61,361 bases of DNA from positions 1-61,361 of the IMG/VR virus record IMGVR_UViG_3300032285_001526; one strand, written 5' to 3'. The stretch's first letter is position 1. Each line of letters starts with the position of its first letter. The notes under the pieces were generated by a model. The model worked only from the letters and a program-made list of their open reading frames with translations, was not told the DNA's origin and ran no database searches. This document shows positions 4,801-50,566 of the stretch, piece after piece. The translations under genes and the position numbers were made by a program. This stretch comes from a virus.

Positions 4801-5607
4801 TCCAACTAAGCCACTAGCTCCAGTTGATCCCACTAAACCGCTTGCCCCGGTAGCCCCAACATTTCCAGTAGCCCCGGTTGCGCCAACCAACCCGCTAGGT
4901 CCAGTTGCACCTACGAGTCCACTAGCTCCCGTTGCCCCCGCGCCTCCACTCGGCCCGGTTGCACCTACAAGTCCGCTCGGCCCGGTTGCACCAATTAGCC
5001 CGCTCGCTCCGCTTGCTCCAGTCGCCCCTACATTCCCGCTTGCTCCAGTTGCTCCTACTAAACCGCTCGGGCCTGTGGCTCCAGTTGATCCGCTTGCACC
5101 GCTCGGGCCTGTAGCTCCAACCGTTCCGCTGGCACCTGTTGCTCCCACGCTGCCACTTGCACCTGTGGCTCCCGTAAGCCCGCTCGGCCCTGATGGCCCA
5201 ACGCTGCCGCTTGCCCCTGTTGCGCCTGCAATTCCGCTAGGACCGCTCGGCCCTGTGGCTCCACTCGGCCCCATCAAGCCACTCGGGCCTGTTGCGCCAG
5301 CAATGCCACTCGGCCCGGTCGGCCCAGTTGCCCCGGTTGCGCCCATAATGCTGCTATTCTGTAAGGCGCGGATGAAATAGCACATCAGCCCTTCCCCGGG
5401 AAGCCGAGGAATGCCAAAAATTGTTGCTGACTGATTAGGATCGCAAGGAATAGTCCAAACCACCTTACGGTTTACAACAGTCTTTGTAATTGTGCCATAA
5501 AGAGCCGTTGTTAGGTTATCTATAAGCGAAGGAACCGACTCTTGCGACACACTCGGGTAAGGAGTGTCTTTACGGCAAATGCTGTTGTACCCGTTGTCGC
5601 CATTCAT
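1807..5607 (-). CDS. Collagen-like tail fibre protein (1266 aa)
   Basis: Long trimeric fibre. Residues 1-87 form an N-terminal domain clearly related to the 227-residue protein encoded just upstream: both share a DTPYP - ESVPSLI - ALYG - IPCDPN - PGEGL-CYFIR pattern, probably a virion anchor. Two uninterrupted Gly-X-Y blocks follow, residues about 88-327 and 447-887, almost all GATGPSG or GASGLVG type. A non-collagen domain (about 328-446) separates them. Residues 888-1266 are a Ser/Thr/Gly-rich globular region ending in FGTY, the same last four residues as the 227-residue paralogue. Gly-X-Y blocks in phages form collagen-like triple helices and act as extended shafts. Exact repeat number may vary between isolates. 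Confidence 0.88.
2944..4266 (-). repeat. Collagen Gly-X-Y coding repeat, distal block
   Basis: About 440 codons of perfect Gly-X-Y triplets, mostly G-A-T-G-P-S-G with G-L-x and G-V-x variants, inside the collagen-like fibre gene. The underlying DNA is a degenerate 9-18 base repeat and is a likely site of slippage, recombination and assembly error. Boundaries are approximate to a few codons. Confidence 0.85.
4627..5346 (-). repeat. Collagen Gly-X-Y coding repeat, proximal block
   Basis: About 240 codons of Gly-X-Y triplets, separated from the longer block by a roughly 120-residue non-collagen domain. It has the same composition as the distal block. The antisense strand is open for long stretches only because of this repeat. 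Confidence 0.85.
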
Positions 5608-19645: not shown

Positions 19646-19853
19646 TATACCACCGAGCTTTCTTTAAGTCTTCAAGAGCTTCTCCCTTTAGCCCTTGTCG
19701 CCACAAATACTTCATCGCATTCCCGCAATTGAAGTTCATATGCTCGCAAATCGTGATTGCTTCAACCCCGGACGGGTGCTCGGTGTAATGGCTCGGATGC
19801 TCAACAGGGTCGTGTCTAGGGTGGTGAAATGTGTCGTCAACCTCTCGATTCAT
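19608..19853 (-). CDS. DUF3310-like protein (81 aa)
   Basis: Matches the small phage family with the pattern HPSHYTEHPSGVEAITICEH (about 18-37), then NCGNAMKYLWRQGLKG and DLKKARWYIDREI. The family is sometimes annotated as nucleotide-kinase-related but has no proven role. The start ATG 19851-19853 overlaps the upstream stop as ATGA. Nearby MazG-like and other small genes suggest an early nucleotide-metabolism group. Confidence 0.8.
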   Translation of the reverse strand: MNREVDDTFHHPRHDPVEHPSHYTEHPSGVEAITICEHMNFNCGNAMKYLWRQGLKGEALEDLKKARWYIDREIQRLEALE

Positions 19854-20161
19854 GCATCCTCCCATTTGCTGATTGTCCTCACGAAAGCTTCCGCACGCTG
19901 CCGAGCTGTTGCTCTCCATCCGGGAACAAACTGCTTCTCTCGCTCCAGAACATGCACAAGGTAAACGTGCATCGTTCGCTGGTCCTCTCTGCTCATCTGG
20001 TTCTCAGCTTCATGCATAGCATTTAAGTCGTGAGTGTACTGTGGCAGGAACTCGTTTCCTAACCATTCCCGGTCTGGTGCTCGCCCAGAACGATGCTGAG
20101 GGTCGATATTAGTCCACCCGCAGAACGCAGCAATGCAGGCATTGATTTTCTCGTCAGTCAT
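19850..20161 (-). CDS. MTDE-family small phage protein, intact copy (103 aa)
   Basis: Begins MTDEKINACIAAFCGW, has a central DLNAMHEAE (about 44-52) and ends TARQRAEAFVRTISKWEDA. This is a recurrent phage family of unknown function. A second copy in this genome (21267-21461 plus 21162-21254) carries the same N-terminal, central and C-terminal motifs but is split into two reading frames. Overlaps both neighbours by ATGA. Confidence 0.7.
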   Translation of the reverse strand: MTDEKINACIAAFCGWTNIDPQHRSGRAPDREWLGNEFLPQYTHDLNAMHEAENQMSREDQRTMHVYLVHVLEREKQFVPGWRATARQRAEAFVRTISKWEDA

Positions 20162-21165: not shown

Positions 21166-21254
21166 TCTGCCTCCTCCCATTTGCCCAGCGTTCGCAAAAA
21201 CGCTTCTGCGCGTTGGCGGGCGGTGCTGTGACAAAGAGTGATAATGGTAGCCAT
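21162..21254 (-). CDS. Detached C-terminus of a split MTDE-family gene (30 aa)
   Basis: Reads MATIITLCHSTARQRAEAFL and RTLGKWEEAE. The last 20 residues match the C-terminus of the intact copy at 19850-20161 (TARQRAEAFVRTISKWEDA). It starts at ATG 21252-21254, eight bases after AGGAGG, a good SD that is rare in this genome. With the upstream ORF 21267-21461 it rebuilds the full family, so the gene has been split by a stop between the two parts yet both parts keep open frames. Confidence 0.7.
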   Translation of the reverse strand: MATIITLCHSTARQRAEAFLRTLGKWEEAE

Positions 21255-32373: not shown

Positions 32374-33066
32374 TTATTTGGATTCTAACTGTGATTTGCG
32401 TGCGTCCTTCAGTGCTGTCAATTCAGCCTTTTCTTCTTCACTCTGCGCCGACCGCATTGCGGCAGTGTAAACTTTGCGTAGCACCTCAATACTATCAGCG
32501 GCTGCGATAGCATCAGTAGCCGTCAATTCCTGCTCGGGAACGTATTTTAATTCCATCACTGGGGCAGGGGCTGAAATAGCCCGAGCGGGAGCGGGAGTAA
32601 TGTCAATGCTCTCAACTTCCTCGGGAGTGTAAACGCCGCAGACAACGCCGGGGTAAACAGTGCGAACCCCTTCCGAGATGCACCGGGACCGCAGCATAGC
32701 CCGGGAATACTTTTGCCAAGTCCCGTTGCCGAGGAGTTGCGCTTTCTTTGCCATTTCCATCGTCCAACTGATCTCCACCTCGCCCCCGGCGGAATGCGAG
32801 AACACTGCTGTCGCCTCCTGATCGGTCAACTTCACCCAACGGACCTTGCCTCCAGCCTGCTGGAAACGAGCAAGGATTGCGTCCGCTTTGAGAGTTGGGC
32901 GACCACTGATGACGTGATAGTCGCGGAGAGCTAATGCTGGGCTGATGCCCTCTGCCTGAGCGATGAGCATGAGTGCCGCAGCTTGCTCGGGTGATTTGAT
33001 TCCAAATAGCCCGCTCTTGCTTCCAAGCGTAGCCATCCGTTCAATTGTTTCGATGCTTAGTTCCAT
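32374..33066 (-). CDS. RecT-like single-strand annealing protein (230 aa)
   Basis: Fits the phage RecT/Red-beta-like family: MATLGSKSGLFGIKSPEQAA, then MLIAQAEGISPALALRDYHV and ISGRPTLKADAILARFQQAG (about 48-67), and the later TMEMAKKAQLLGNGTWQKYS with RAMLRSRCISEGVRTVYPGV. That order is diagnostic. It promotes annealing and strand invasion with the exonuclease encoded just upstream. Leader TACATACAT instead of SD. Confidence 0.85.
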   Translation of the reverse strand: MELSIETIERMATLGSKSGLFGIKSPEQAAALMLIAQAEGISPALALRDYHVISGRPTLKADAILARFQQAGGKVRWVKLTDQEATAVFSHSAGGEVEISWTMEMAKKAQLLGNGTWQKYSRAMLRSRCISEGVRTVYPGVVCGVYTPEEVESIDITPAPARAISAPAPVMELKYVPEQELTATDAIAAADSIEVLRKVYTAAMRSAQSEEEKAELTALKDARKSQLESK

Positions 33067-33079
33067 ATGTATGTATTTG

Positions 33080-34036
33080 CTAGATTTGTACCAACGATTT
33101 GCTTGCAGTTTTTGACTCTACCGCTTGTTCAGGGAAAGGCAATTCTTTCGGCCAGATCTCGCGGAATTTCTTTTCACTCATCGCACCCTGAGCCTCAAGC
33201 AGCTTCTCAATTGTAATGGGGCCAATAGCTCCGAGCTGGTTCTGAACGCTAATGTATTTGCTGGTGCGTCCTTTCTGTAGCTTCCACCCCGGAACCTCGC
33301 CGCCAGATTCGAGCACTTCTCGGGCTTTGTCCTTTGCGGAATCCCAGAACTTCTCGAACACTTTGCATTTTGCGAGGAAGTCCCCAAGGCGCACCGGGTC
33401 TGCTAGCACCGCAGCAAACGAGTCCTCAGTCGTTGCTAGACTGGAGTCGAGCGCAGCCATCCGGGGGGCGCAGGTCTCCACTTTTGAGCACCAGTTGCAG
33501 TACTCACACACTGACGGTTTCTTTTCCGGGTTAGAAACCGTAGCTACAATGCCGTCAACCAATGCCTGCGCTTCGGCGTAGGTAAACTCAAACGAGACGA
33601 CTTTTTGAGCGTCACAGAACAGCAGGTGAGCTGTCCAGTTATCAACAAAGTATTGCTCCATCAGCCCGAGCGCATACGCAGCCATCTGTTCCCGGTAATT
33701 ACGGACGAGACCGGACTTGAGGTCAGCGTGAAACCACTTGCCGGGGACGACAGCATCGCAAGTCCCGGTCATGCCGTTGGGCAGTGTGACTTTGCACAGT
33801 TCGTCTGTCGTGATGCAGTGCGACCCATCAGCAAGTTGTTTGAGCGTGTCGGTTGCCCAGATTACGGCTGATGCGTCCTCAGTTTCGAGGGCAGGCAGTT
33901 CGTTACCCTGCATAACGCTACGAAACACCTCGTCAAGGCGGGTGCCTCGCTGCGCTGCTGGGGATGATTCGCCGGGAGCGGACTCGTAGCAGGGACAGGC
34001 TGCGAGCTTAGGTAGTGATGATGGTCTGATATTCAT
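33080..34036 (-). CDS. RecB-like (DUF2800) exonuclease with Fe-S-type cysteines (318 aa)
   Basis: PD-(D/E)XK exonuclease pairing with the RecT-like protein. Core: GTCDAVVPG, WFHADLKSGL (Asp-x-Lys at about 128-130) and YREQMAAYA (Gln motif), as in AddB/Cas4/DUF2800 nucleases. Cysteines at 14 and 16 (LAACPC) and a C-terminal cluster CEYCNWC - TCAP (about 176-191) match the 4Fe-4S staple of that group. Makes 3' tails for recombination-dependent replication. Confidence 0.88.
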   Translation of the reverse strand: MNIRPSSLPKLAACPCYESAPGESSPAAQRGTRLDEVFRSVMQGNELPALETEDASAVIWATDTLKQLADGSHCITTDELCKVTLPNGMTGTCDAVVPGKWFHADLKSGLVRNYREQMAAYALGLMEQYFVDNWTAHLLFCDAQKVVSFEFTYAEAQALVDGIVATVSNPEKKPSVCEYCNWCSKVETCAPRMAALDSSLATTEDSFAAVLADPVRLGDFLAKCKVFEKFWDSAKDKAREVLESGGEVPGWKLQKGRTSKYISVQNQLGAIGPITIEKLLEAQGAMSEKKFREIWPKELPFPEQAVESKTASKSLVQI

Positions 34037-36311: not shown

Positions 36312-37013
36312 TTAAAAGGATCTAGTCTGCCAAAGCTTCCGGGCTGCATTTAACTCAATCTGCGGCTTGCCGATACGCTCGTTGACTGCGTTGTGGAACC
36401 TGACGCTCCAGTCAAATAGGTTGAAGTAGTCAGGGGGATTCTGGTTGATCCACTGGTCGGCGTGATCCTTGCAGGGACAGGCATCGAACGGGAGGTCTCC
36501 GTACCAGTCTAGAAACCAATTGTGGACGGCTCTGCGCTTGCTGTCGTTGCGTAGGGCAAACAAGTGCAACTCTGCCCAGTGCCGGGCACCTTCGAGGAGG
36601 ATGCGGCTATTCCGTAACTCACCCCGCTTCTCAATGCGCTCTACCTCGTTTCCAACATCAAACACCCACTTGTCGTGAGCTTTCCAGTCAGTCCGGGTTG
36701 CCGTCGCGCACTCTTTCTCAATAGCCATCGCGATGACGTGTTGCTTGTGGTATGGGGCATTCTGGTCGTCCCCGGGCTCCTCAAGCAGCGGATTATCTGT
36801 ATCCCACTTGGTGACCATTTCATCAGTGATGCCGTCCCGCTTGCACAGGTACGCCTCAATCATCTCGTGAATGGCCACCAGCAGGACGGAAACATCGTTC
36901 CCGCCATACTCAGGCACAGTCAGCATTAGAGCCCCATCAGCAAGCCATTCCCAGTCGCCTGCGGTGGGATACCGCATTGCGCTGGGATCTACAGTCTTGA
37001 TCTCAATCCTCAT
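36312..37013 (-). CDS. Zincin-like domain fused to ERV/ALR-like domain (233 aa)
   Basis: N-terminal part (about 1-105): LLVAIHEMIEAYLCKRDG, with H49-E50 and E53, and PYHKQHVIAMAIE (H89, H92), a putative metal-binding helix pair seen in phage proteins of unknown function. C-terminal part (about 140-230) matches the sulfhydryl-oxidase (Erv1/Alr) fold: RHWAELHLFAL, LPFDACPCKDHADQWI, then FDWSVRFHNAVNERIGKPQ. In place of the usual CxxC this has C179-P-C181, so redox activity is uncertain. A stand-alone thiol oxidase could form virion disulfides (the capsid has several Cys). It overlaps the ATP-grasp gene by 11 bases. Confidence 0.65.
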   Translation of the reverse strand: MRIEIKTVDPSAMRYPTAGDWEWLADGALMLTVPEYGGNDVSVLLVAIHEMIEAYLCKRDGITDEMVTKWDTDNPLLEEPGDDQNAPYHKQHVIAMAIEKECATATRTDWKAHDKWVFDVGNEVERIEKRGELRNSRILLEGARHWAELHLFALRNDSKRRAVHNWFLDWYGDLPFDACPCKDHADQWINQNPPDYFNLFDWSVRFHNAVNERIGKPQIELNAARKLWQTRSF

Positions 37014-38274
37014 CGAAAACGCTCAAGTTTAGTTTATCCATTTTATCAATCTGTTCGCGCACCTGCTCAATTGCGCCAGTCTTACCTTCGAGGTAGTACC
37101 CCTCAACAAGCTCTGCGTTTTCTAGCGCATGATCGAAGGCTTCCTCAAGCGTATTCCCAAGCCCGACAACTGCGCCGATCTCTGGCAGACCGCAGCTCTG
37201 AGGGACTACGAAGTATCCCCGGTCGTCCTTGTAGATGTTGCGGAGTTTAACGTAATCGCGGATCTCCTCGGGGAAGCGCACTGGTTGCCAGTTCTTGTCG
37301 GCAAAGGACGAGTGCAGCATAATCTCAGCCCCGTACTTGGCAACAGGCTCAGGATCGATCACAATGCCGTTTGCCCCGGCCCAGATGCAGTCAGCAAGGT
37401 TCTTATACTGCTCCTGATAAAGCTCGTTAGGAGGCGAAGGAGCCCGGGCGCAGAAGTCAATCATGTAAGGCTCGTGATCGGCCCCGATACGGATCTCGGT
37501 GGAGAAAAAGCCCCGGTAGCCGTAAGCCTCGAACACAGGCTTCATCCGCTCGTTAAACCGGGTCAGCGGCTCAGGAAGGTCTTTGTAGTTCTTGAACACA
37601 CTAGCAAACCCGCAGTCCTTGATTTCGAGCCCAGAGATGAGCTTCGAGGGGAACTTGCCGTCGATGGTCCACGCATCCGTACCGAACTCAACTTTGTCTT
37701 CGAGAGCATCCTCCACCGTAAATTCGATGATATCCTTGAACCTGCCGAGCGACCACTCGACCTCGTCCAGTTTAGGCTCCACAAGGTCGTAGTTGATGGA
37801 ATGAAAAGTCTCAAACGTGCCCCTGTATTTGTCGGTTTTGACGTAGACATTGTCGTGCTCCCGTAGGTAATCGCGGAGAGCAGCCATCCCTTTGACGTGA
37901 GCGAACTTGCCCACTGGGAGCCCCAGTTCCTGAATAATGGCTTTCATGCCTTCGCGTTGAAGTTCAAGGCACTCCCCGGTGCGGGAGCCCCAGACCACCT
38001 TGCCTTGCTTGAGTAGGTGCTCTTGCTCGTATCCAAAATAGATGTCGGGGAAGCAGAATAGGTCCACCTCGTCGTAGTGAGGGCCATAAATTGAGTCTAC
38101 AAGCTCCAGCTCATCGATACCCATCCCGATCTTAGCAAGATTAAGCCGGGGGAATGCCGACTCCCAAGGGACGTAGTAATACACCTTCTTGTAAGTCTTT
38201 GCGAGCTTGATTGCCAGCTCGCAGAACAGCCCGTTGTCAACAACAAGGCACACTACGTCTTTAGGGTCTTTCAT
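37003..38274 (-). CDS. ATP-grasp ligase-like enzyme (423 aa)
   Basis: Resembles ATP-grasp ligases such as PurD: EGMKAIIQELGLPVGKFAHV (about 108-127), the grasp strand NVYVKTDKYRGTFETFHSIN, IIEFTVEDALEDKVEFGTDA, and the Mg/ATP site GFFSTEIRI - PYMIDFCARAPSPPNELYQE (about 264-293). These enzymes ligate a carboxylate to an amine via an acyl phosphate. The substrate here is unknown; a PurD role is unlikely without pathway partners. Neighbours are small Lys-rich proteins and a zincin/ERV fusion, so peptide or cell-wall modification is possible. Confidence 0.75.
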   Translation of the reverse strand: MKDPKDVVCLVVDNGLFCELAIKLAKTYKKVYYYVPWESAFPRLNLAKIGMGIDELELVDSIYGPHYDEVDLFCFPDIYFGYEQEHLLKQGKVVWGSRTGECLELQREGMKAIIQELGLPVGKFAHVKGMAALRDYLREHDNVYVKTDKYRGTFETFHSINYDLVEPKLDEVEWSLGRFKDIIEFTVEDALEDKVEFGTDAWTIDGKFPSKLISGLEIKDCGFASVFKNYKDLPEPLTRFNERMKPVFEAYGYRGFFSTEIRIGADHEPYMIDFCARAPSPPNELYQEQYKNLADCIWAGANGIVIDPEPVAKYGAEIMLHSSFADKNWQPVRFPEEIRDYVKLRNIYKDDRGYFVVPQSCGLPEIGAVVGLGNTLEEAFDHALENAELVEGYYLEGKTGAIEQVREQIDKMDKLNLSVFDED

Positions 38275-38549: not shown

Positions 38550-41500
38550 TTAATATTTTGAGCCAAAGGTAACTGCATCTAAGATTTGCTTTGCTAACTC
38601 TGGAGTGATGCCGAGAGTTCTGAGTTGGTCTGGCGTGGCTGTTCCCAACTCTTTGACAAAGGTATCAATTCCTCGGGCCAATAGTTTTCCACCTCCCATA
38701 GAATCCCCTGAAGCTGCTCCACTGTCGGAGACTTGTCCCCCAGCTTCGCCACCTCCTGCCCCACGAATTTGGCTAGAAGCTCGGCTTGCTGCTCTCCGAG
38801 AGCTTGCAACCTTTCCTCTGAGTATGCTTGATCCAGTCGGGTTGCTAACAGGTTTTGTTCTGACTCCTTCATGTTTCATGTAAACCAGATCAGGCATCTT
38901 TTGTCCATCCCAACCTTGAGCCGTCCATTGTGCTTTCAGCGCAGCTTCTTTTTTGTCCCGAGCTGCTTCCACTTGAGCTTTTTGCTCTGGAGTAGCGTTT
39001 TCTGGCATAGCAACAAGGAACTGCTTATCGTATGGAGAACGGTCGTATTCCACCCACCCGTGGCGAGCATACAACGAAGGCAACAACTCAGCGTTCCTTC
39101 CAGCAATATTCACCCCGTAACAGTCGAGGTTTGTAGCTCCCTCTTGAAGAGCCTTTGCCATCATAAGGTTTAACATCCCACCGAGCCCAGAGTTGTTCAT
39201 TACGCCAACCAGTTCTTTCCCACCATCTTTCCGAGCTTTTAACCCAAACCAAACATCGTTCTCTGGAAGCGTGTATAATGACATTTTTCCAGATTTGATA
39301 TCCTCTTTCAAAATGGACGGGTCGTATTGAGTCAGCGTCTCAGCAGCCTCATTCCGCTTGATTGCGTGCAAAAACTCAGTCATCCCTGCTGTCTTTTGCC
39401 CTGCAATTGCAGTCCAATTATCTGTGATGGCAGCAGCCATTGCGCGAGCAACAGCAGGATGCGTTTGCAGGTTTTGAGCCTCATTTATTGACCCCATCAC
39501 CTGCGGGTTAAGCTTTTGAGCAGTGATGCCCGTTGGGATTCGGCCTTGATAGGCGTAATCCGGGCGAATGTCATACCGTTCAGCGGTGCCTACTGCCTTT
39601 TCTGCAACTCTCCTTGCCTCCAACGCATCATCCATCTGCTTCTCTATGTCTGGAGATTTCTTTAGGATTTTGGAGATGGCCGAATTCAAAGATTTAATAG
39701 AAGCCTTGTATTCAGCAACTTTGGTTTTATCTGGAGTGTTTTTTGCAGACTCTCTCTTTAGTAGTTTTTCCGCTGCCGCAAGCCCTTCGCGAGCGGAAGT
39801 AAGCTCTTGATACTTGTCTCCAATCTTCAGTTGCAAATTGGAAAGAATACCTTCTTTAGCCGCTAAATCTCCCTGCGCTTCTTGAATCTTTGCTGGCTTG
39901 TTTTCAGCAACGTATTCTTTGATCTGCCTAATTGGATCAGGCATTCCAACATCAAACGGCACTGGAGTCTGAAAGTGAGCAATCATCTTGCCCGGAAGCA
40001 CTGTGTTGTAAGTAAGGTGCTCTGGAACTCCAAGATCAGCAGCCGACAAGTCATCTCGCAGTTTCCACTTTGTCTCTCCAGTATCGACTTCTTTTGCGTC
40101 TTTCCCCCGGCCTTGCTTTTCCATCACAGGCACCTGTTTAGCCATCCGATCAATGTCGATTAAAAGCATCGAAAGAAGGTTTCCTGAGTCAATTCCGTGG
40201 TAAGAAGCGTCTCTTGTTTCTCTGAGAGTGCGCTCAGAAATTGGAACCCCCATTTCTTGAGACTCTTTCTTTGTGAGAGCTTTTACAATTGCAGCCCGAG
40301 ATTCAAAGGATAGCCCAGAAAAATACTCGTCCATCTGAGGGCTATTCAAATCAGGGAATTCAGACAGGCTTACCTTTTCACCCTTGATGTTGCGAATTTC
40401 ATTTGCCAATGCATTTGCTGCCGCAGGACTAACTTGTCCAGAATTAACAGCATTAGCAACTTCCTTCATAAAAACCCGGCCAAAGTTTTTATTTGCCTGA
40501 TGGGCAGTTTGAGACATTGAGAACGGAGAAACAATTGCCCAATGTTTGCCGTTTTTGTCTTTCCAAATTGACCCCGTCTTAACAAGGTCACCAAGGATTG
40601 ATTCAACCCCTTCCCGAGTTGATGACCAAGCCGCAGTCATATTGTTGCCGTCGTAATTCATCACTGGATACGCTGGACCACCCTGCATCTCGACTCCTTT
40701 GTATTGCCCGCCTCCTCCGAGAAGGTCTGCCATAATTGGCAAAAACGGCTTGTCTGCGTATTCGTCTGGAATCTTGCTAGGAATACCCTTTGCCTTAGCC
40801 ATTGTGTTGGCTGGCACAATACTCTGAACAAACTGCCGTTGAGCTTGTTTTTGTTCTTCAGTTACAGGCTCTTTTGTAAGGTCGTTTTCTTTGCCAGCAA
40901 CAGTTTTTGATGGCATGAACCGAGCCTGCCCACCAGAAACAGATTCAGACATTTCTGGAGTGATGTTGACCTTCCAGATTTGCTCCTGTCCTTTGCTTAA
41001 AGCATTTCGAGCGTCGTCAGCTTCAATGTAAGACTTAAATGGGCCAACCCCGGGAACCCTTTTGCCAAACGATCCTTCGTTGAGCCAGTAGTCAGTTCCA
41101 TCAAACCCTACCGCAAGCCCTTTCATCCCCTTGTCAGGGTTTGGAATTCCGCCTTTCTCGACTTTTGCACCCCACTGCTTCACATACTTTCCAATCTCTT
41201 TTGGCAGGATTGTGTCGTAGAAGCCAATCATGCCTTCGCCGCCGAGCTTTAAGTCAACGCCCTTTAATGCATGAACCTGTTTGCGAGACCCGATTGTGTA
41301 CGGCTCTGTGGCAAGTAGCTTTTCAGCAACTTCTTTGCCTACATAGTCAGCAATTTTCTCCCTTGGAACAGCTTGGTTAAAAACTTCATCTCCACTGAGA
41401 TCGAACGCTAACAATGTCTGAGTTAATGGCAAGTATTCAACTGCACTGACTTTATTACTCAAATCATACCGTTCAGCCTGCGCCTCGCCCCCAGTCCAAC

Positions 41501-44500
41501 CAACCCACTGTTTGCCGTCAGCGACAGCTTTCTGGAGTGCGTGCTTAAATAACTGGAGAGGCCAATCTTTTCGGAACGGAGCGTCTGCAATACCTTCCTT
41601 GGATAGGCTCGCTGCTTTTTGAATCACTTCCTCTTCAGTCCTCCCGCCGTATGTTCCAAGATCTCTTCCGTTTGAAGAAAGCACAATCCAGCCAGATGCG
41701 TCTGGGTTTTCTGAATCGTACTTAAAGTTGTACGCTTTCCATCCTGTTGTGTCTGGAAGTCTTTCGTAACCTTTTTCTCGCGCCTCCTTATGCAGGTCAG
41801 ACTGCAACTCTTCAATCAGCCTGCCGTTACCAAAGTCTGCCGTCCGCATATGGGCGACATAGTTTGAAACGTCAGGGAAGTGGCTTGAGGTGTAGTCTAC
41901 TCCGGGCATGCGGAGTACGATTTCTTCGTAGTTTGTGCCTCCGGGAAGCGTGTATTGGGAGTATTGAGCGTCCTCTACGTCACCCTCGCTAATTGTAGTT
42001 TCATCTTCAGCAAGGCTGCGAAAGTAATCATTTAAATCTTTGCGAGCTGCTTCTTCTGTTTTGTAATACTCTTCAGGCCTAAAAATTGTTAATCCATAAC
42101 TGTTTTTTTGTTCTCGGGTTACATGATCATAGTTTTGATCAATAATAAACCATCCTTTAGGCGTATAATCTTCATCGTTTGATTCATCTAAAATAACATC
42201 ATAACCAGCGTAATCATTTAGCATTTCAATGTGATTTTCGATGCCGTTTTCTCTGGCTTTTTCAGCTTCTTCTTTTGAAGAAAAATGTTCAGTATTTCCG
42301 TCAGAGTATGTGACAAAATACTCTTTGCCGTCTTTCATCGTCTGCGTCTCAAATTTCGCAGCGTAGCTGTCCTTCAAGAACCGCTTAACGTCGTCCTTTG
42401 TCACAAACCCCTTCTCTGCCTGCATCGAGTCAATAAACTGATTGATGCCACTCCATTTCATTTCGTCGGGCTTCACGCCGCTGCCCTTCTGTGGGTCTAG
42501 AATGCCCTTAAGCTGCTCTGCGCTGGCTCGATTAGGCATCTTGTCCAACAGAACCCTACCTGCTTTGCTGTAGAACCCGGGGGCGACCATTGTTGGGTCT
42601 TCCTCACGCTCAGGCATGAATCGAATGCCAGCCTGCTCTTGTTGTGGAATGCCGCCTTTTAGCTTGTCTATCTCAGACCCGATATAAGCAGAGTCATCAG
42701 CCTTCTCAGCGGGAATAATGCGAGTTTCAATGCCGTTTCTTTCCAGTGTGGAAAGCACTTCCGGGTCAACATTGTCCGGCACAATGGCTCCCTTAAACTC
42801 ATTAAGCTGCACGATGCGTTGTGGCTTTGCTTCAAAGTATTTCACTGGAGAGGCAGACATTGCATCCGCAGCGGAAACAGCTTGTTTCACGACCTCGCTA
42901 GGCACATTAGTGAACCCCATTTTACTCAGGGTCTGCTTCATCCTAGATTCCCCGCCTGCTCCGCTTCTGTAGTAGGCACCCAGAGCTGCCATTGATTCGT
43001 CCAATGCATCCCACGTTGCGCCTTTGTAATAAGGCACCATTGCGTCCCTGTAATCTCGCAGCACCTCAGAGACCTTATTGCGAGCTTCGTTGACTTCTGC
43101 CTCAGAACGAATACCCCAAGGTGCCTCGGCAGTATTGCGCATTTCCTGCAAAGAGCCGAAACGCTTTGCCATTTGAGCAGCAGTGAGTCCTGTGGATTGG
43201 GTCATCGATTTTTCGACGCCAGCAATCTTTCCGCTCGTCATTACCCGGGCAATATTTTCAAGCGTGTACGGTTCCCACTTTCCAGCAACACGAATGCGCG
43301 GAGCTTCGTACATGCCTTCGATAGTGTTCTCGACCCACTTGTAAAAATCAGACTCTTTGCCAGCCAACTTTTGATCCAAAGCTTTCTGCGTTTCAGCCGC
43401 ATCAATTTCTGTTTTTCCGTAGTTGCGAACATCAGCTTCAAGCCTTGATATTGCGCCAACAGTCGCCTGCCCGTCTTCGCTTACAAACCTGTTTCCAATC
43501 CGGGTCGCTTTACCCTTCATTTCCTCTGGATAAACCTCATCAAACCCGGCTCTAATTGCATCACCGAGTGCCTTGCGCCCCTCAATGTCATTGTAGTTGA
43601 CGTCCTGAATAGAGTTTTTTGACATCCACTCTTTCATTGGAGCAGTGTCCAATATCCCAAGGTCTTGAGACACAGTGCGCATCACTGGCTCAGGCGCAGC
43701 ATCCCCGAGGTACGTTGCTTTGGCTACGTTTGACTTTTTCAGCTTGTTAACAGCTTCCTCTGGGTTGGGTCTGTTGACCGCATTGTCCCAAATGATGTCA
43801 GTAACATTGTCCCCGTATGAACTGCTGAACTTGCCTTGGGCAGGCTTGAACAAATCAATGGTCTGCTGTGCTTTCTTTGTTTTGACCCTTGGATACTCAG
43901 GCTTTGGAAACCGCTGCGTGTAAGCGTCTCCGCTGTATACGGGATTGGTTTTAGGATCTACTAGATCGCGTCCGCCAACCAAAGTGATGTTTCCAAACCC
44001 TTGAATTCCAGTGCCTGCCTTAACCACTGCAACGGAAGGCACAGCAAGCCCTCCCATCTTGTCAGCGAACAACAATGCATCGTCTGAAATCTTGTGAATT
44101 GCAGACATCTTGTACGGCTGAGATGTCTCCGTTTTTGGAAAACTGCCTTCAGCGTGATGGTACTCCTCATCAGCAGGGGCAGGCATGAACCGCACTTGCG
44201 CTGCCTCTGGCTGAACAGTTGCCTTAATCTCTCCAGTGCCATTCGGGTCGTACTCAGCAGACACAGCCTGCAAGCCTTTTAGGATGCCTGCGCCAAATCC
44301 CACTGGCTCCTTAAGCCGAGGCTCACGCTCGCGCATAGCCTCTTCTTTGGCGGGCATCAGGTTGTACAGAGCCTTGCCGTAGTTCACCCGGAATGGGGCA
44401 TCGCTGCTCCTTTCGAGGTCGTGAAAACGATCAACCCGGTACGAACGAATCAACGTGTTAGGGTCAGAGCTTTCCTCATCCAGTTTCTCAGCTTTAGTCA

Positions 44501-47500
44501 GCCTACGAGGCGGACGCTTCATCGTGCTCCGGGCAGGGTTTGCCAGCAATGATTCAGGCTCTGTCTTCCTAAAGATGTTCAGGAAGTCGTTAACGCGATT
44601 CTTCTTTGCGATGGCAATGTTTGAATCGGAATCCAGCCCAGTCTCCCCGGGGAGCCCAGCAGGAGCACCTTCACGAGGCTTCCAGTTGTCCAGCACTTTA
44701 CGGACATCTGTCATAAATGCATCCCCATCGCCTTGCCACAGGTTCAGCAGTTCTGGAGTGTCACGCTGCCAACGACGCAGCTTTTCACGCATGCCCGTTT
44801 TCGAGAACATGTTGAAAAGGATGTTTCCGTCTTTCGACATTTTCATGCCGAGCGGAACAAAGTCTACAATCTTTGGCGCAAACGATTTGTAGCGTCCGTA
44901 GCGGTCCATTGCTTGACCGTATAGGCCAATCATCCCTTCGCCTTCATCTCGCACCAGTAGGTCGTTAAATTCGAGGATTCGACGCTTCAGCCCATACGGG
45001 ATAATCGTCTCTGGTAACCGCTTGATTGCTTTGACCTGCTCTGGAGACAAAATGCCACCAAATGATAAGCCGTCAGCAGAAGTGGCGGACATACGGCCCG
45101 GGTACTCCTTGTCTGGAGCTGATTCTAATGCCTCGCGGATGATCCGAGCCCGCTCGCGCCCCAGTGCCTTTGCCTGATCTGGAGTCAACGCTGCCAGTCC
45201 CCCGGAAGCATCACGCTTGATTCGGGAGGTGATCTTTAACTTTCCACCTTTTGGCAACTGAACATCATGCAACTCGGGCGGGACAGTGCCGTACCCGGAA
45301 GTTTGCCTCAACTCAGAGTCGCCAGTGTCTGTCGTGGAATGCTCAAACGTACCCTCCATTGCGCCCGGGTCAGTAATGACGTGAGACGATACGACATTCC
45401 CGTTTTCATCAACAACAGTCGCAACCTTTTCAGTGGCAAAGAACCCATCTCCAAACTGCTTTGCTACAGCCTCATTTGCCTTGAGTTGCGTCTCGGTGAT
45501 CGGAGCGTGCGGGATAATCTCAGCCGCATTAATATCTCCGTTCAGTTCAGCAACCGCTTTGAGTGCCTTGCGAGTTGCATCAACCTGATCTTTAGAGAAG
45601 GTAACGCCGACAACAGACGAGTCCCAAGGTTTTGTTTCAGTAAGCCCAAAAGCGTCTCGAATTGACCTGACCGTTTTTTGGTTCTTGTTCTTAACCGTTG
45701 CCCAATCAACAAGCGGAGCCAACCAAGGCTTTGGCGATTCCCCGAGCTTAATCCCGCCTTGCGCCCCTCCCTGAATCAATTCGGCCATTACCTCGGCTTT
45801 CATATAAGAAGCCGTTTTAGCGGGGTCTATGTCGTTTGTTTTAACGTCCCAAAGCCCGGTAAGCTTTGCAAGGTGCTCCCAGCCTCCCTGAACCCCTTTT
45901 GCGTAAACATTCTTGAATTTGTTTACAAGGTCTTCGGTAGATAGGATGCCAGCGTCTCCACTGATAAGGTTGCCTCTTTCATCAAACCGTTGATCACCAA
46001 ACAAGTCTTTGATGGTCTGTGCGTTTGCCTCTCTGAATTCTTTGGAGTTCCAAAAAGAGTGCCCGGCTTCGTGCCCTACAGCATTGAGCACAGATTCCCC
46101 AGTGCCCATCCTGCGTTTAACAGCATCAATATTGACGTTCAGACGCTCTTTGTAGGGAGTGTATAAGTCGATGGTCTTGCCACTTGAAAGACGATGCTTG
46201 CCACCGTTCTCTGCCTCAAAAGCAATCTGTCCAGAGTTGGCCAACAGGTGATTAACCACCTCAACTTTTTCAAGGTCTGTGAGCCCCTTATCCTTGTTGT
46301 TTTCAAGCACCTCATTGACTAGTTGAGGCGTAGTGGTCATCCGCAGCTCAACATTCCTATTGGTAGTAGAGCCGTTGAGAGCAGTCATCAAATCAGCGAG
46401 CCCAATCCGAATCTGATCTGCATACATCTGCCGGGTCTCTGCATTTGCCTTCTCGGCATTCTGAAGCATTGCCCTGCGTGTTTTAGCAATCCGCAGTGTG
46501 TAGTCAGCATCCTCTTTTGCTGCTGCAATTTTGTTTTCAGGCTCACCAGTGTTAACTGCGTTGACGAGTTCTTGCTGCGCTAAAGCATGTTCTCCCACTG
46601 CATTTTCAGTCAGAGCTTTAAGAGACTGGACGTAATTGTCCCAGTTTGCAAATTCAGTGACATGCTGCTTTGTTGCTCCATCAAGGCCATCAAACCATTT
46701 TGCCGCACCAGCCCGTTGACGCTTTTGATTGGCTTCGTATCGAGCGTGAGAGACCCCAGACATATTGCCGAGCACCTCGCCGCCAACGTGAAAAAACACG
46801 CCTTGCCCCATCAGGTCAGCAATCTCTTCCGGGTTCTTGTTTTCGAGGATACCAACAGCCGCTGCCAGCGTAGCTCCGTGGACTCCGCCCCGGGCCATCT
46901 CAACAGTATTCTGAGCCATCCAGTCTAGAACTTTTGCAGCAGGAATAGATTTATCCGCCAGCCACTTTTGAGCAGCCGGGGTCATCCCAAGCTCACCAGC
47001 TTTTTCAGTCGCAGCTTTGGCCCCAGCTAGAAATCTGCCTTCAGCACCAGCAGCAAGCCTCCCACCAGCTAGAGCTGACTCCATCAGTCTCGGGGTCTGT
47101 AACGCTGCACTGCCTAACTTTAGTGTGGTTGCTCCGAGCAATCCTTCACCAAGCTTAGAAGCTGGCACACCAATGAATTCAGGAATCTTTTCAAGTGCGC
47201 CTTTAGTCTTTTCTGTGCCGACTTCAATAGCGTTTGCCAACCCTCCAAATCCTCGTTCAAACACCCCGGGCTTCTGAGAGTCCTTGATCTTTTGTAGGTC
47301 TTGCTCGAAAGCTTTTGCGACCGCTGCTCTGTCAATTTCAGCAAGCTGCGCCTCGGTCTTTCCAATTCTACTAGCAGCTTTTGCTCCTTGGCCTAATGCT
47401 TGAAATGCTTTGCCGTAAACATCAAATGGATTCAACCCAGCCCTGCCGTAGCTAAGAGCTTCGGTGATATCTGCCTCGGGAACCATCTGCGAAGCTTCCT

Positions 47501-48662
47501 TCCGAAAGTTGCTGATGAGTTGCTGAGAGTCGCGCAGATCGTCTATCTGTTTCTCTTTTAGAGCAGCCTCACGATCTCCACCGAATCGCTCAAGACGATC
47601 ATCGACAGAAGGCGACCAAACAGAGGTCAGGCCGTATGCCATCTTTTCTGCCAGCTCCCGAGTGTTGGGATCTTCAAGAATCAGGCGAGTAAATACGTTA
47701 GGATCAGTCTTTTTCCAGCCTTCGTAGTATTCATCCGCACGTTGCCTGCGCAAGTATCGGTCAAAAGCTTCGTCGTGAGAGATTCCTCCCAGTTCTTTTG
47801 GAATCTGCTGTTGAATCCAGTCGGTAACAGACAACCCGTTGGCTGCTGCATTCGCCGCAGTTTTTGCAACGGATTCAAACGTCTCCGCCGCACTGGTAGC
47901 AGGAGCTAAAAAGTTCTTGCCCCATTGAGCCCACTGCTCCCGATTTGTAAGGTCTTCTGGACCCTGTAAAAACGCAGGAATAGTCTTTGCCACCCCAGAA
48001 GCAAAACGCACCCCGGACTCAGCAAGCCCTTTTCCAATTCCAACACCAACATTCCACGCTTCCTTGCCGTAATTAGTGTCTTCGTGTTTTTGATCGAAAA
48101 CAGCCCTGTGCTGCTCGTCCGTTTTTGGAAACCAACTAGGAAACTGCTTAATCTCTTCCGGGTCTGTAACCTTTGCCGCTTCAGTTTTGATCTCGGGCGT
48201 GATTTGACTAGGAGACAGGTTGTGAAGCTGACTTGCAATGTACGACTGCACAGGCTCTGTGTGATCAATGTAGAGCCCTTTGGCAGTGTCCTCAATTGAA
48301 CTCAAAGCGGACTGTTTAGCAGCCTCGATTGTCGGAAAATCAGTCTGCGCTGCCTGCTTTGGTTGCTCTTCTTTTGGCAGAAATTCTTTGCCAATTTTTG
48401 AGGCTTTTTCCTGCCTTTTAACAAACTGCTCAAAGTCTTTTGGAAGCTCTCCAGTTTCTTCCTGTGGTTTAGCTTCTGGAAATGGCTCTGCTTTTTGTCC
48501 TTGCCCAATGGAAGGAGCCATAAAGCTAGAACCCATAGGCCCCATCCCGGCAAACATTCCCGCTTCCTCTGTTTTTACAGATTCAGGAATGTACTTTGCA
48601 GCCTCTTTAGCTGCTTTTGATTGTCTCGCCGCCAGTGCTTCTATTTCGTCGAGGTCACTCAT
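38550..48662 (-). CDS. Giant polyvalent virion-type protein (3370 aa)
   Basis: Likely carried in the virion and ejected. N-terminal third: amphipathic helices (GVGIGKGLAESGVRFASGVA, near 206-225). Metallopeptidase motif AVGHEAGHSFW (H864, E865, H868), with Glu at about 957-961 (KAEVMAELI) as possible third ligand. Three RFMP motifs (1491, 2014, 2581) cut it into about 1494, 523, 567 and 786 residues. Recognisable polyvalent-protein modules follow each: LLFADKMGGLAVPSVAVV (1530-1547); GFYSKAGRVLLDKMP (2029-2043), IEELQSDLHKEAREKGY, GWTGGEAQAERYDLS; and a GNAT-like end (NLDCYGVNIAGRNAELLPSL at 3178). The C-terminus is Ser/Gly-rich. No RNA polymerase motif seen. Confidence 0.85.
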   Translation of the reverse strand: MSDLDEIEALAARQSKAAKEAAKYIPESVKTEEAGMFAGMGPMGSSFMAPSIGQGQKAEPFPEAKPQEETGELPKDFEQFVKRQEKASKIGKEFLPKEEQPKQAAQTDFPTIEAAKQSALSSIEDTAKGLYIDHTEPVQSYIASQLHNLSPSQITPEIKTEAAKVTDPEEIKQFPSWFPKTDEQHRAVFDQKHEDTNYGKEAWNVGVGIGKGLAESGVRFASGVAKTIPAFLQGPEDLTNREQWAQWGKNFLAPATSAAETFESVAKTAANAAANGLSVTDWIQQQIPKELGGISHDEAFDRYLRRQRADEYYEGWKKTDPNVFTRLILEDPNTRELAEKMAYGLTSVWSPSVDDRLERFGGDREAALKEKQIDDLRDSQQLISNFRKEASQMVPEADITEALSYGRAGLNPFDVYGKAFQALGQGAKAASRIGKTEAQLAEIDRAAVAKAFEQDLQKIKDSQKPGVFERGFGGLANAIEVGTEKTKGALEKIPEFIGVPASKLGEGLLGATTLKLGSAALQTPRLMESALAGGRLAAGAEGRFLAGAKAATEKAGELGMTPAAQKWLADKSIPAAKVLDWMAQNTVEMARGGVHGATLAAAVGILENKNPEEIADLMGQGVFFHVGGEVLGNMSGVSHARYEANQKRQRAGAAKWFDGLDGATKQHVTEFANWDNYVQSLKALTENAVGEHALAQQELVNAVNTGEPENKIAAAKEDADYTLRIAKTRRAMLQNAEKANAETRQMYADQIRIGLADLMTALNGSTTNRNVELRMTTTPQLVNEVLENNKDKGLTDLEKVEVVNHLLANSGQIAFEAENGGKHRLSSGKTIDLYTPYKERLNVNIDAVKRRMGTGESVLNAVGHEAGHSFWNSKEFREANAQTIKDLFGDQRFDERGNLISGDAGILSTEDLVNKFKNVYAKGVQGGWEHLAKLTGLWDVKTNDIDPAKTASYMKAEVMAELIQGGAQGGIKLGESPKPWLAPLVDWATVKNKNQKTVRSIRDAFGLTETKPWDSSVVGVTFSKDQVDATRKALKAVAELNGDINAAEIIPHAPITETQLKANEAVAKQFGDGFFATEKVATVVDENGNVVSSHVITDPGAMEGTFEHSTTDTGDSELRQTSGYGTVPPELHDVQLPKGGKLKITSRIKRDASGGLAALTPDQAKALGRERARIIREALESAPDKEYPGRMSATSADGLSFGGILSPEQVKAIKRLPETIIPYGLKRRILEFNDLLVRDEGEGMIGLYGQAMDRYGRYKSFAPKIVDFVPLGMKMSKDGNILFNMFSKTGMREKLRRWQRDTPELLNLWQGDGDAFMTDVRKVLDNWKPREGAPAGLPGETGLDSDSNIAIAKKNRVNDFLNIFRKTEPESLLANPARSTMKRPPRRLTKAEKLDEESSDPNTLIRSYRVDRFHDLERSSDAPFRVNYGKALYNLMPAKEEAMREREPRLKEPVGFGAGILKGLQAVSAEYDPNGTGEIKATVQPEAAQVRFMPAPADEEYHHAEGSFPKTETSQPYKMSAIHKISDDALLFADKMGGLAVPSVAVVKAGTGIQGFGNITLVGGRDLVDPKTNPVYSGDAYTQRFPKPEYPRVKTKKAQQTIDLFKPAQGKFSSSYGDNVTDIIWDNAVNRPNPEEAVNKLKKSNVAKATYLGDAAPEPVMRTVSQDLGILDTAPMKEWMSKNSIQDVNYNDIEGRKALGDAIRAGFDEVYPEEMKGKATRIGNRFVSEDGQATVGAISRLEADVRNYGKTEIDAAETQKALDQKLAGKESDFYKWVENTIEGMYEAPRIRVAGKWEPYTLENIARVMTSGKIAGVEKSMTQSTGLTAAQMAKRFGSLQEMRNTAEAPWGIRSEAEVNEARNKVSEVLRDYRDAMVPYYKGATWDALDESMAALGAYYRSGAGGESRMKQTLSKMGFTNVPSEVVKQAVSAADAMSASPVKYFEAKPQRIVQLNEFKGAIVPDNVDPEVLSTLERNGIETRIIPAEKADDSAYIGSEIDKLKGGIPQQEQAGIRFMPEREEDPTMVAPGFYSKAGRVLLDKMPNRASAEQLKGILDPQKGSGVKPDEMKWSGINQFIDSMQAEKGFVTKDDVKRFLKDSYAAKFETQTMKDGKEYFVTYSDGNTEHFSSKEEAEKARENGIENHIEMLNDYAGYDVILDESNDEDYTPKGWFIIDQNYDHVTREQKNSYGLTIFRPEEYYKTEEAARKDLNDYFRSLAEDETTISEGDVEDAQYSQYTLPGGTNYEEIVLRMPGVDYTSSHFPDVSNYVAHMRTADFGNGRLIEELQSDLHKEAREKGYERLPDTTGWKAYNFKYDSENPDASGWIVLSSNGRDLGTYGGRTEEEVIQKAASLSKEGIADAPFRKDWPLQLFKHALQKAVADGKQWVGWTGGEAQAERYDLSNKVSAVEYLPLTQTLLAFDLSGDEVFNQAVPREKIADYVGKEVAEKLLATEPYTIGSRKQVHALKGVDLKLGGEGMIGFYDTILPKEIGKYVKQWGAKVEKGGIPNPDKGMKGLAVGFDGTDYWLNEGSFGKRVPGVGPFKSYIEADDARNALSKGQEQIWKVNITPEMSESVSGGQARFMPSKTVAGKENDLTKEPVTEEQKQAQRQFVQSIVPANTMAKAKGIPSKIPDEYADKPFLPIMADLLGGGGQYKGVEMQGGPAYPVMNYDGNNMTAAWSSTREGVESILGDLVKTGSIWKDKNGKHWAIVSPFSMSQTAHQANKNFGRVFMKEVANAVNSGQVSPAAANALANEIRNIKGEKVSLSEFPDLNSPQMDEYFSGLSFESRAAIVKALTKKESQEMGVPISERTLRETRDASYHGIDSGNLLSMLLIDIDRMAKQVPVMEKQGRGKDAKEVDTGETKWKLRDDLSAADLGVPEHLTYNTVLPGKMIAHFQTPVPFDVGMPDPIRQIKEYVAENKPAKIQEAQGDLAAKEGILSNLQLKIGDKYQELTSAREGLAAAEKLLKRESAKNTPDKTKVAEYKASIKSLNSAISKILKKSPDIEKQMDDALEARRVAEKAVGTAERYDIRPDYAYQGRIPTGITAQKLNPQVMGSINEAQNLQTHPAVARAMAAAITDNWTAIAGQKTAGMTEFLHAIKRNEAAETLTQYDPSILKEDIKSGKMSLYTLPENDVWFGLKARKDGGKELVGVMNNSGLGGMLNLMMAKALQEGATNLDCYGVNIAGRNAELLPSLYARHGWVEYDRSPYDKQFLVAMPENATPEQKAQVEAARDKKEAALKAQWTAQGWDGQKMPDLVYMKHEGVRTKPVSNPTGSSILRGKVASSRRAASRASSQIRGAGGGEAGGQVSDSGAASGDSMGGGKLLARGIDTFVKELGTATPDQLRTLGITPELAKQILDAVTFGSKY

Positions 48663-50566
48663 TGTGCAGGTGCGGTATTAGCTTCTTGACCAGTGGGGAA
48701 CCCAACTCCGCCACCAACAAATCCTTGTCTTTTTGTGGAGAAATCTTTTTTGCCTAAAATCAATGAACCTGTGTATCTTTCTCTTTTTAAACGAGTTGAT
48801 AAAGATTCTGATTCTTGAGAAATTTCATTCAACTGTTCTTTAATAAGAGCCAAAGATTCTGTGTCGTTTTCTGCCAATGCTTTTTTAGCCTCTTGAAGAA
48901 GTTTCTTTGTTGCCGCATCATTTTCTGAAATTTTTTTAGCGGCATCAGTTACTAGAATAATGTTATCAACATACGGATGGGGCAAATGAACTTCATTTTT
49001 CTGCCCTGAATCCATCATTTTTTCCCTCCCTTGAAGCAGAACATCATTTGCAGCAGCAGCTTGTTCGTTGTGCATTTCAGCCATTGTGCGCATCATTTGG
49101 TCACGCTGCCTGTCGCTCAAAAGTGCTCCAGATAATGGCTTGTCCTTTATGAGATTTAATTTATCTACAAAGTTTTTAGCTTCAATCATCAGCTTAACTT
49201 CGCCTTCAGTAATTCTACCTCCAGAAGTTGCCCGAGCAAAAGTATTAATCAAATCTACGTCTGCTGCTCCAGCTGCGCTTGGATTACGTTTAACATTATC
49301 GTAAGCAGCCATAAATGAACGCATCATTGCTCTAGTTCCATTTTGGCCTTCATAATTTTTGAAAGCTGGATGAGTTACAATTGCTTGTCCTTCTGAACGA
49401 GTTGCCTGCTGAACCTTTTGTTTTTCATTGTCTGAAAGCTTGCGCTCATCCAATGCAGCTTTGTCTGCTTCTTCTTTAATGTTAACGTAATTTATCTTAT
49501 ACCCCTCTTTTGTTGAATCAGCTCCAACAGCCCTCCACTCAGGATTTGTTTCATTGAATTTCTTCATAAACTCTTCAATGACATTTGAATCGTAAACTCC
49601 GCCTTCTCCTGATTTATCAACGTAAAACACGCGATCCATTCGTGCAGGCGTTGGCTGTTTTGTTTCAGGTTGTATCTCAGGTTGCTTTACTAAAGCACCA
49701 ATTCTTTGACCTTCAGTGCGTTTAGGCTCAATAGGCGCAGCAAAATCAGGAGCACCGTACTGTGGTAAAGAAGCAAGTACTGCGGTTTGTTGTTGAGGAG
49801 TGATGGCTCTGGAAACATCAGAACCAAGTGGCACTTCTGGCATTTGAGCCGTTGGATAAACAGGCAACGCCAAAGAGAGAGCGGCAGGTTTATTAAAATC
49901 AAATGCAACTTTTTTTGGGGCAATCGAGGAGATTGAGATAGGACTTTCGCGATCTACAGCAAGAGCTGGGGCTGCGGAGTTAAACAATCCCATATCAGCA
50001 GGGCCAGAAGGCTCAGAAGGCAATTGATCGCCTTGTTGAGCAACTCGCTCTTGCGCCATCCTGCGTGCCGTTTTAAGCCCGGGAGTCTCTGCTCCAGTTG
50101 CTTCCTGTTCAGCTACAGGTTGAGTTCCCTGAAGTGTACCTCTAACAACTTGCGAAAGTTGGCTTATGTCTTTTGATCCTTTTCCAGAAGATTTAGCCTG
50201 TAGCGTTGCCATCACTTCACTGTGACGCAAATCATCTTTTCTCTGCTGCTCTTTTAACTTTGCTTCATCAGCCAAAAGCTTCTTGTTTGCAAGCTCTTCT
50301 CTTGCAGCTTCTCTTTCAGCCAGAAACGCATCTTTTTTATCCTGACGTTTTTGCTGATAAGAAGCCGTAATCCCGGCACCAATCGCACTTAAAGCTCTGT
50401 CAATTCCCTGAGCAATATACGGCTTAGTCTCGGCAACCTGAAACGCAGGCATAGCTTGAAACTGCATAGGCGCACCAAACGTCAACGGACGCAATCCTGC
50501 GAGTGCGTCGGTCGGGATCTGCGGTGCTACAGTTGCAAATGGAATGCCTGATTCAAGTCCTGCCAT
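48659..50566 (-). CDS. Probable ejection/internal virion protein (635 aa)
   Basis: Low-complexity N-terminus rich in Pro/Ala/Gln (PQIPTDALAGLRPLTFGAPM), a coiled coil at about 75-120 (QQKRQDKKDAFLAEREAARE), a Pro-rich middle and helical C-terminus (VDKLNLIKDK, LLQEAKKALAENDTESLALI). This composition resembles podovirus internal proteins, and the gene directly precedes the giant protein (ATGA overlap). Function as an internal core or ejection protein is inferred from context. Confidence 0.6.
   Translation of the reverse strand: MAGLESGIPFATVAPQIPTDALAGLRPLTFGAPMQFQAMPAFQVAETKPYIAQGIDRALSAIGAGITASYQQKRQDKKDAFLAEREAAREELANKKLLADEAKLKEQQRKDDLRHSEVMATLQAKSSGKGSKDISQLSQVVRGTLQGTQPVAEQEATGAETPGLKTARRMAQERVAQQGDQLPSEPSGPADMGLFNSAAPALAVDRESPISISSIAPKKVAFDFNKPAALSLALPVYPTAQMPEVPLGSDVSRAITPQQQTAVLASLPQYGAPDFAAPIEPKRTEGQRIGALVKQPEIQPETKQPTPARMDRVFYVDKSGEGGVYDSNVIEEFMKKFNETNPEWRAVGADSTKEGYKINYVNIKEEADKAALDERKLSDNEKQKVQQATRSEGQAIVTHPAFKNYEGQNGTRAMMRSFMAAYDNVKRNPSAAGAADVDLINTFARATSGGRITEGEVKLMIEAKNFVDKLNLIKDKPLSGALLSDRQRDQMMRTMAEMHNEQAAAANDVLLQGREKMMDSGQKNEVHLPHPYVDNIILVTDAAKKISENDAATKKLLQEAKKALAENDTESLALIKEQLNEISQESESLSTRLKRERYTGSLILGKKDFSTKRQGFVGGGVGFPTGQEANTAPAQ

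Follow-up and report, generated by a model that had tools for sequence, protein, structure and literature searches.

Phage-specific peptide tags that change in concert mark module borders in giant polyvalent phage proteins

What does it mean when one short peptide word recurs along a protein several thousand residues in length? The question is raised by an IMG/VR virus record of 61,361 bases (the window, by which we mean the whole stretch of DNA analysed), in which a first-pass annotation had pointed to three copies of the tetrapeptide RFMP in a single giant protein, placed them at module borders and proposed that they act as processing sites or recognition signals. The reading frame is indeed free of stops over its 3370 residues, the three copies lie at exactly the residues and nucleotides that had been assigned to them (Table 1), and the segments that they delimit measure 1494, 523, 567 and 786 aa, as had been stated. 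Polyvalent proteins with MPTase, PBECR, ART-PolyVal and LPD domains were described by Iyer et al. 2017, who proposed that embedded peptidases self-process them and drew a comparison with RNA-virus polyproteins (PMC5512222); a term search of that text returned no junction motif or cleavage site. Our literature searches found no paper that names RFMP in connection with phage and no report of cleavage motifs in polyvalent proteins.

Table 1. Features of the giant protein and its flanking genes (window coordinates, with protein residues where given)
Feature	Coordinates	Strand	Basis
Giant polyvalent protein, 3370 aa	38550..48662	-	Open frame without internal stop; giant homologues L002, L003
Zincin-like metallopeptidase domain (predicted), about residues 760-970	45753..46385	-	HExxH invariant in alignment; model
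HEAGH catalytic motif (predicted), residues 864-868	46059..46073	-	HEAVGH/HEVVGH in L002/L003
Backbone domain N3, about residues 1100-1430	44373..45365	-	BLAST; in 43 giant proteins; good-confidence model
Degenerate tag YNLMPA, residues 1433-1438, end of N3	44349..44366	-	Homologues' tags at same place
RFMP copy 1, residues 1491-1494 (RFMPAP)	44181..44192	-	
PBECR5 predicted RNase domain, residues 1520-1661	43680..44105	-	Pfam PF18814, E 6.4e-22
RFMP copy 2, residues 2014-2017 (RFMPER)	42612..42623	-	Same site in L002, L003
Swappable ITPEM module, residues 2018-2580	40923..42611	-	Viral relatives, alignment, fold ending just before copy 3
RFMP copy 3, residues 2581-2584 (RFMPSK)	40911..40922	-	Predicted disordered
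C-terminal modules, residues 2585-3370	38553..40910	-	Partial homologues L111, L018
635-aa gene directly upstream	48659..50566	-	Syntenic; 28-38% identity to L003/L002 neighbours
423-aa gene downstream	37003..38274	-	Syntenic; identity 90% (L002), 75% (L003)

A scan of viral contigs yielded two giant homologues, L002 (3008 aa) and L003 (3469 aa), and alignment with the window protein revealed that about 1440 N-terminal residues are conserved and that the modules after them vary from phage to phage. One zincin motif lies in this conserved part, and gene order is shared, the giant gene standing between a gene of 635-721 aa and one of 423-431 aa. The 423-aa protein of the window, which matched no Pfam or PHROG family, is much better conserved in L002 and L003 than the giant protein that it adjoins. 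RFMP marks the joints of the homologues as well, with four copies in L002 and four plus one RFIP in L003. That the copies sit at module borders also held: PBECR5, the sole Pfam domain in the window protein (79 bits against a cut-off of 25), lies between copies 1 and 2, and in homologues a conserved module, which we call ITPEM and for which a single scan gave more than 500 viral relatives, comes after copy 2 and closes with copy 3. A weak PHROG match covers residues 3125-3210 in the C-terminal modules, and the C-terminal end is without a tag.

Some tetrapeptide or other usually occurs three times in shuffled sequences, a point in favour of chance repetition. RFMP, however, is made of rarer residues, with an expected count from composition of 0.0063 (P(>=3)=4.2e-8, or about 0.007 after correction for all 160,000 tetrapeptides), and it is absent from the other ORFs of the window, the tag being found nowhere else in the phage proteome. 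Chance is refuted by its recurrence at junctions in dozens of homologues, and we give it practically no weight.

These homologues define a family of tags. The DNA patterns GQxRFMP[DE] and G[VIM]RFMPE retrieved many giant proteins of other viruses; the pattern search required one tag per locus only and these first scans selected for RFMP, the ITPEM and ART scans left the tails out of the search patterns, and each scan contributed no more than its 80 best loci to the collections. Among giant phage proteins, dozens bear RFMP(E)-like tags where modules meet, and 31 non-redundant giant ORFs together hold 86 R[FY][MIL]P sites, two to five per protein in most, with E directly after the tag in 80 of them. 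Replacements within the tag are conservative (F/Y, M/L/I). Across the tag's five residues, copies within one protein are 71-100% identical; outside them identity does not exceed 15%, apart from 35% directly after the tag. A left module ending in KISQTGQM is joined to at least nine different right flanks straight after RFMPE, and the right flank KLDSDY comes after several left ends. With module borders defined by BLAST ends and folds, BLAST breakpoints fall within 5 aa of a tag at 3.9 (ends) and 3.3 (starts) times the random frequency. Comparison of the flanks by alignment and pattern scans, which had been suggested at the outset, thus finds the tag again at junctions, and homologues lack RFMP only where another tag takes its place. 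The distribution along the chain is uneven: in 38 FMP proteins, 4 tags lie in the 27,566 aa upstream of the zincin versus 124 in the 61,835 aa downstream, and none of 47 complete C-termini has a tag in its last 58 aa.

The tags that take the place of RFMP are themselves repeated. Modules homologous to ITPEM end elsewhere in SFSIG, LFAKAR, LFSPAD, FMAGP, QFMPAE, FMPER, RFAGEP or LFSR, and the alternative tags listed across proteins (FAKAR, FSPAD, FSIG, FMAGP, FSP, FAGEP, QFMPAE, FMPER and LFSR) recur at further junctions of their own protein, SFSIG five times (P 3e-16), LFAK likewise five times, and FMPAE, FMPER, FSPAD and LFSR also in repeats. Within a protein, non-homologous modules end alike, whereas between proteins homologous modules end differently. 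The end of N3 takes part in this, reading NFMPE, NYMPA, NLSPQ or NLAGEP in homologues and each time matching the module tags of its own protein, and the switch is complete in L184 (NLSPQ/RFSPQ/RFSPK/LFSPK/RFSPA) and L088 (NLAGEP/KFAGER/RFAGEP/RFAGEP). Permutation tests, which remove relatedness among proteins in part only, reject independence of the module tails within a protein: ITPEM and ART tails of 15 proteins agree at 44 of 60 residues (permuted mean 22.1, maximum 38 in 50,000), and N3 and ITPEM tails of 23 proteins at 55 of 69 (mean 40.4, maximum 53). Collapsing the first comparison to one protein per tag type, which lessens relatedness, leaves 29 identities in 40 over 10 types (mean 12.3, maximum 27 in 100,000).

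Is the tag then a property of the module that it ends? In a tree of ITPEM modules, FMAGP, FAKAR, FSIG and FAGEP tails are nested within the FMP group, and therefore the tag does not follow the module. The modules of L014 and L106 are closely related, yet they end in RFMPE and QFMPAE, each matching its own protein. The tree and the tail comparison together rule this explanation out. Two proteins have features of their own: the odd tag of L123 (ORF residues 393-2683), [F]MA[AGS]P, occurs as MAAP five times, FMASP once and FMAGP twice, some copies lacking the usual aromatic residue, and in L105 (3695 aa) an LPD3 domain fits neatly between two of the five SFSIG copies (ORF residues 1224-2184). No cultured phage was found in the FMP group. 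Among cultured phages, gp68 of the Bacteroides fragilis phage BF1-TP2 (3633 aa) carries RFRE three times, at 1548, 1754 and 2480 (IRFRE, IRFRE, VRFRE), together with HEVVGH, and no convincing repeated words were seen in the giant proteins of Ab9, Carin1 and Pag-Yong1. A weaker case is gp60 of Pseudomonas phage F116, with FSR at 520, 560 and 682.

A different possibility is that the tag is a by-product of recombination, modules being exchanged at joints of short identical DNA and new junctions receiving a copy of the resident version. The coincidence of homology breakpoints with tags would fit, as would the RecT-like annealing protein and exonuclease encoded in the window. At the DNA level, however, identical peptides are mostly encoded differently: among 59 pairs of identical tags within a protein, the 15-nt DNA is the same in 9 and differs in 50, the LFAK copies of L117 use five different Leu codons, and L138 mixes TCN and AGC serines. 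For R, the two copies of a pair share their codon in 24% of cases, where 20% is expected. Since the DNA of identical peptides mostly differs, R codons are near expectation and peptide replacements are conservative, selection acts mainly on the peptide. Over all tag codons, agreement is slightly above expectation (54% versus 40%), a point in favour of recombination, so that junctions may to some extent share descent. The codon differences speak against a main cause at the DNA level, whether a repeat or a recombination site, and we regard this explanation as improbable.

Structure models bear on a further alternative, namely that the tag is merely the strand with which each domain closes, a structural need shared by chance. 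Its hydrophobic-aromatic pattern would suit a strand, and distant ITPEM homologues end in [LF]-[FY]-[SA] even near the protein C-terminus (L154, L157). The AlphaFold models of the window protein, although modest (21-25 sequences), place the tags outside the fold. In residues 641-1492 (25 sequences, mean pLDDT 74.5) N3 is folded and the HEAGH helix follows strands, while most residues between N3 and RFMP copy 1 are below pLDDT 50; in residues 1995-2700 (mean pLDDT 63) the ITPEM module is folded, and the RFMP copies on either side of it fall in linkers of low confidence. All three RFMP sites thus lie in stretches with pLDDT below 50, and a repeated consensus is found at domain borders in linkers predicted to be accessible. 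Given also that the tag is common to unrelated domains and that the residues after the aromatic switch in concert, a last-strand origin is very improbable. A Foldseek search of the zincin and N3 model against the PDB gave no significant match (best E 0.05).

These patterns suggest that the tags are very probably recognised by a cognate phage factor. The explanation that we favour, at slightly better than even chances, is a modular polyvalent protein whose tags are read by a phage-specific factor, most likely a protease that frees the modules. A conserved backbone of the zincin-like domain and N3 would be followed by exchangeable effector modules, and RFMP and its counterparts would serve as short linear motifs for recognition, placed in the disordered linkers that follow N3 and join the modules, with one phage-specific factor reading every copy in a protein. 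A single reader for all copies would make them evolve in concert and would require a newly acquired module to end in the resident tag. The likeliest reader would be a protease; by cutting at the tag or beside it, it would set the modules free ahead of delivery, in the course of it or afterwards. A protease fits best because the tag separates modules, is absent from the 47 C-termini and, in the FMP group, lies almost entirely downstream of the zincin. That the giant proteins are cut at the tags at all is somewhat probable. The first-pass interpretation as a whole is partly supported: recurrence at junctions, a tag that follows the resident protein and concerted change in homologues speak strongly for border placement and for a processing or recognition signal, and recognition stands on firmer ground than cleavage or sorting.

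The tags may instead be docking or sorting signals, by which the module linkers bind the same virion or ejection component without cleavage. The partner envisaged would be the capsid interior, the portal, a core or an ejection protein, and the purpose multivalent packaging or ordered threading. Docking would give most of the same patterns, concerted and phage-specific tags in predicted disordered linkers among them, and the giant proteins of the cultured podoviruses Ab9 and Carin1, which share a PBECR-region module with the window protein, end a tail or internal virion gene run. That module alone is shared: residues 1-1490 of the window protein have no BLAST match in the Carin1 and Ab9 giant proteins, and homology of the N-terminal backbone was not found. 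The absence of tags from complete C-termini and their near absence upstream of the zincin fit separators better than docking tails, and we consider docking, together with the partner envisaged for it, rather unlikely. The giant protein probably travels in the virion and passes into the host; in the run of genes upstream on the same strand, a 1170-aa ORF matches virion structural families. No relatives of the window's 635-, 712- and 801-aa proteins were found in cultured phages.

Turning back to the favoured protease, which protein might it be? In the FMP group, the embedded HExxH zincin would be the leading candidate. Its H, E and H are invariant in all 25 aligned proteins with zincin and N3, and the HEAGH of the window conforms to the HExxH/HExxxH of zincin-like MPTases, which are common but not universal in polyvalent proteins. 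An embedded protease is not present in every tagged protein: in L105 (SFSIG) and L138 (LFSR) the giant protein shows no HExxH plausible for a zincin, and Pfam gave no peptidase for it or for those neighbouring ORFs that were tested, so a zincin acting in cis cannot be the universal reader. No zincin was seen in L123, the frame of which is cut by the contig end. We therefore name the embedded zincin only tentatively as the cutting enzyme of the FMP group. A fuller version of the favoured reading, plausible but short of an even chance, is a private processing code in which one protease (in the FMP group, the embedded zincin) cuts a phage-specific tag at every junction. The cargo would travel as one chain and come apart into separate effectors, and modules gained by horizontal transfer would be domesticated through conversion of their final five residues into the resident tag.

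In the polyproteins of eukaryotic RNA viruses, one short site is repeated at the domain junctions and changes together between lineages, a joint change of the kind that a cognate protease would demand. The likeness is one of analogy, since those proteins and proteases are unrelated to the window's and cleavage here is predicted. In common with the polyvalent proteins of PMC5512222, the window protein and its relatives are giant and multidomain, with a zincin-like domain, PBECR5 and, in tag-bearing relatives, ART-PolyVal and LPD3 domains, so that several distinct effector domains occur in shuffled modules; concerted, phage-specific junction tags are the new element here. Prohead-protease maturation, exemplified by SPN3US gp245 with its A-X-E consensus (PMC10052503) and by the processing of P1 DarA (PMC12810830), is alike in that internal head proteins are cleaved, in some cases repeatedly, at a short consensus that is specific to the phage. 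It differs in that known sites mostly remove N-terminal propeptides, whereas the window tags separate downstream modules and have another consensus; none of the window proteins that were scanned could be recognised as a prohead protease. The virion RNA polymerase of N4, a virion protein of about 3500 residues with an HExxH domain that is ejected into the host (PMC12633501), resembles the window protein in size and HExxH, its HExxH domain lying C-terminal of the polymerase. This zincin-bearing protein is packaged unprocessed (PMC5512222), which counts against processing.

The tags are candidate processing sites for the self-processing proposed by Iyer et al. 2017. They provide named sites, in many proteins, that bear on whether and where phage polyvalent proteins are cut. 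They also allow borders between modules to be located in giant proteins that otherwise lack annotation, and the evolutionary signature that they carry could, through co-variation, point to the reader. Should the tags prove to be cut, effector delivery by these phages would parallel viral polyproteins.

Elsewhere in the window, on the same strand, the RecT-like annealing gene lies beside the exonuclease gene (32374-34036), a recombination pair that could drive module exchange. A terminase-like ORF of 964 aa (23022-25916, minus strand) contains Hint and LAGLIDADG homing endonuclease domains and is likely to harbour an intein. A 1266-aa protein with collagen triple-helix repeats, encoded by DNA rich in tandem repeats (1807-5607, minus strand), is perhaps a virion fibre, and a 57-nt direct repeat, 72% identical (19853-19909 and 21168-21224), lies among overlapping 103-aa ORFs, in what are perhaps duplicated small genes.
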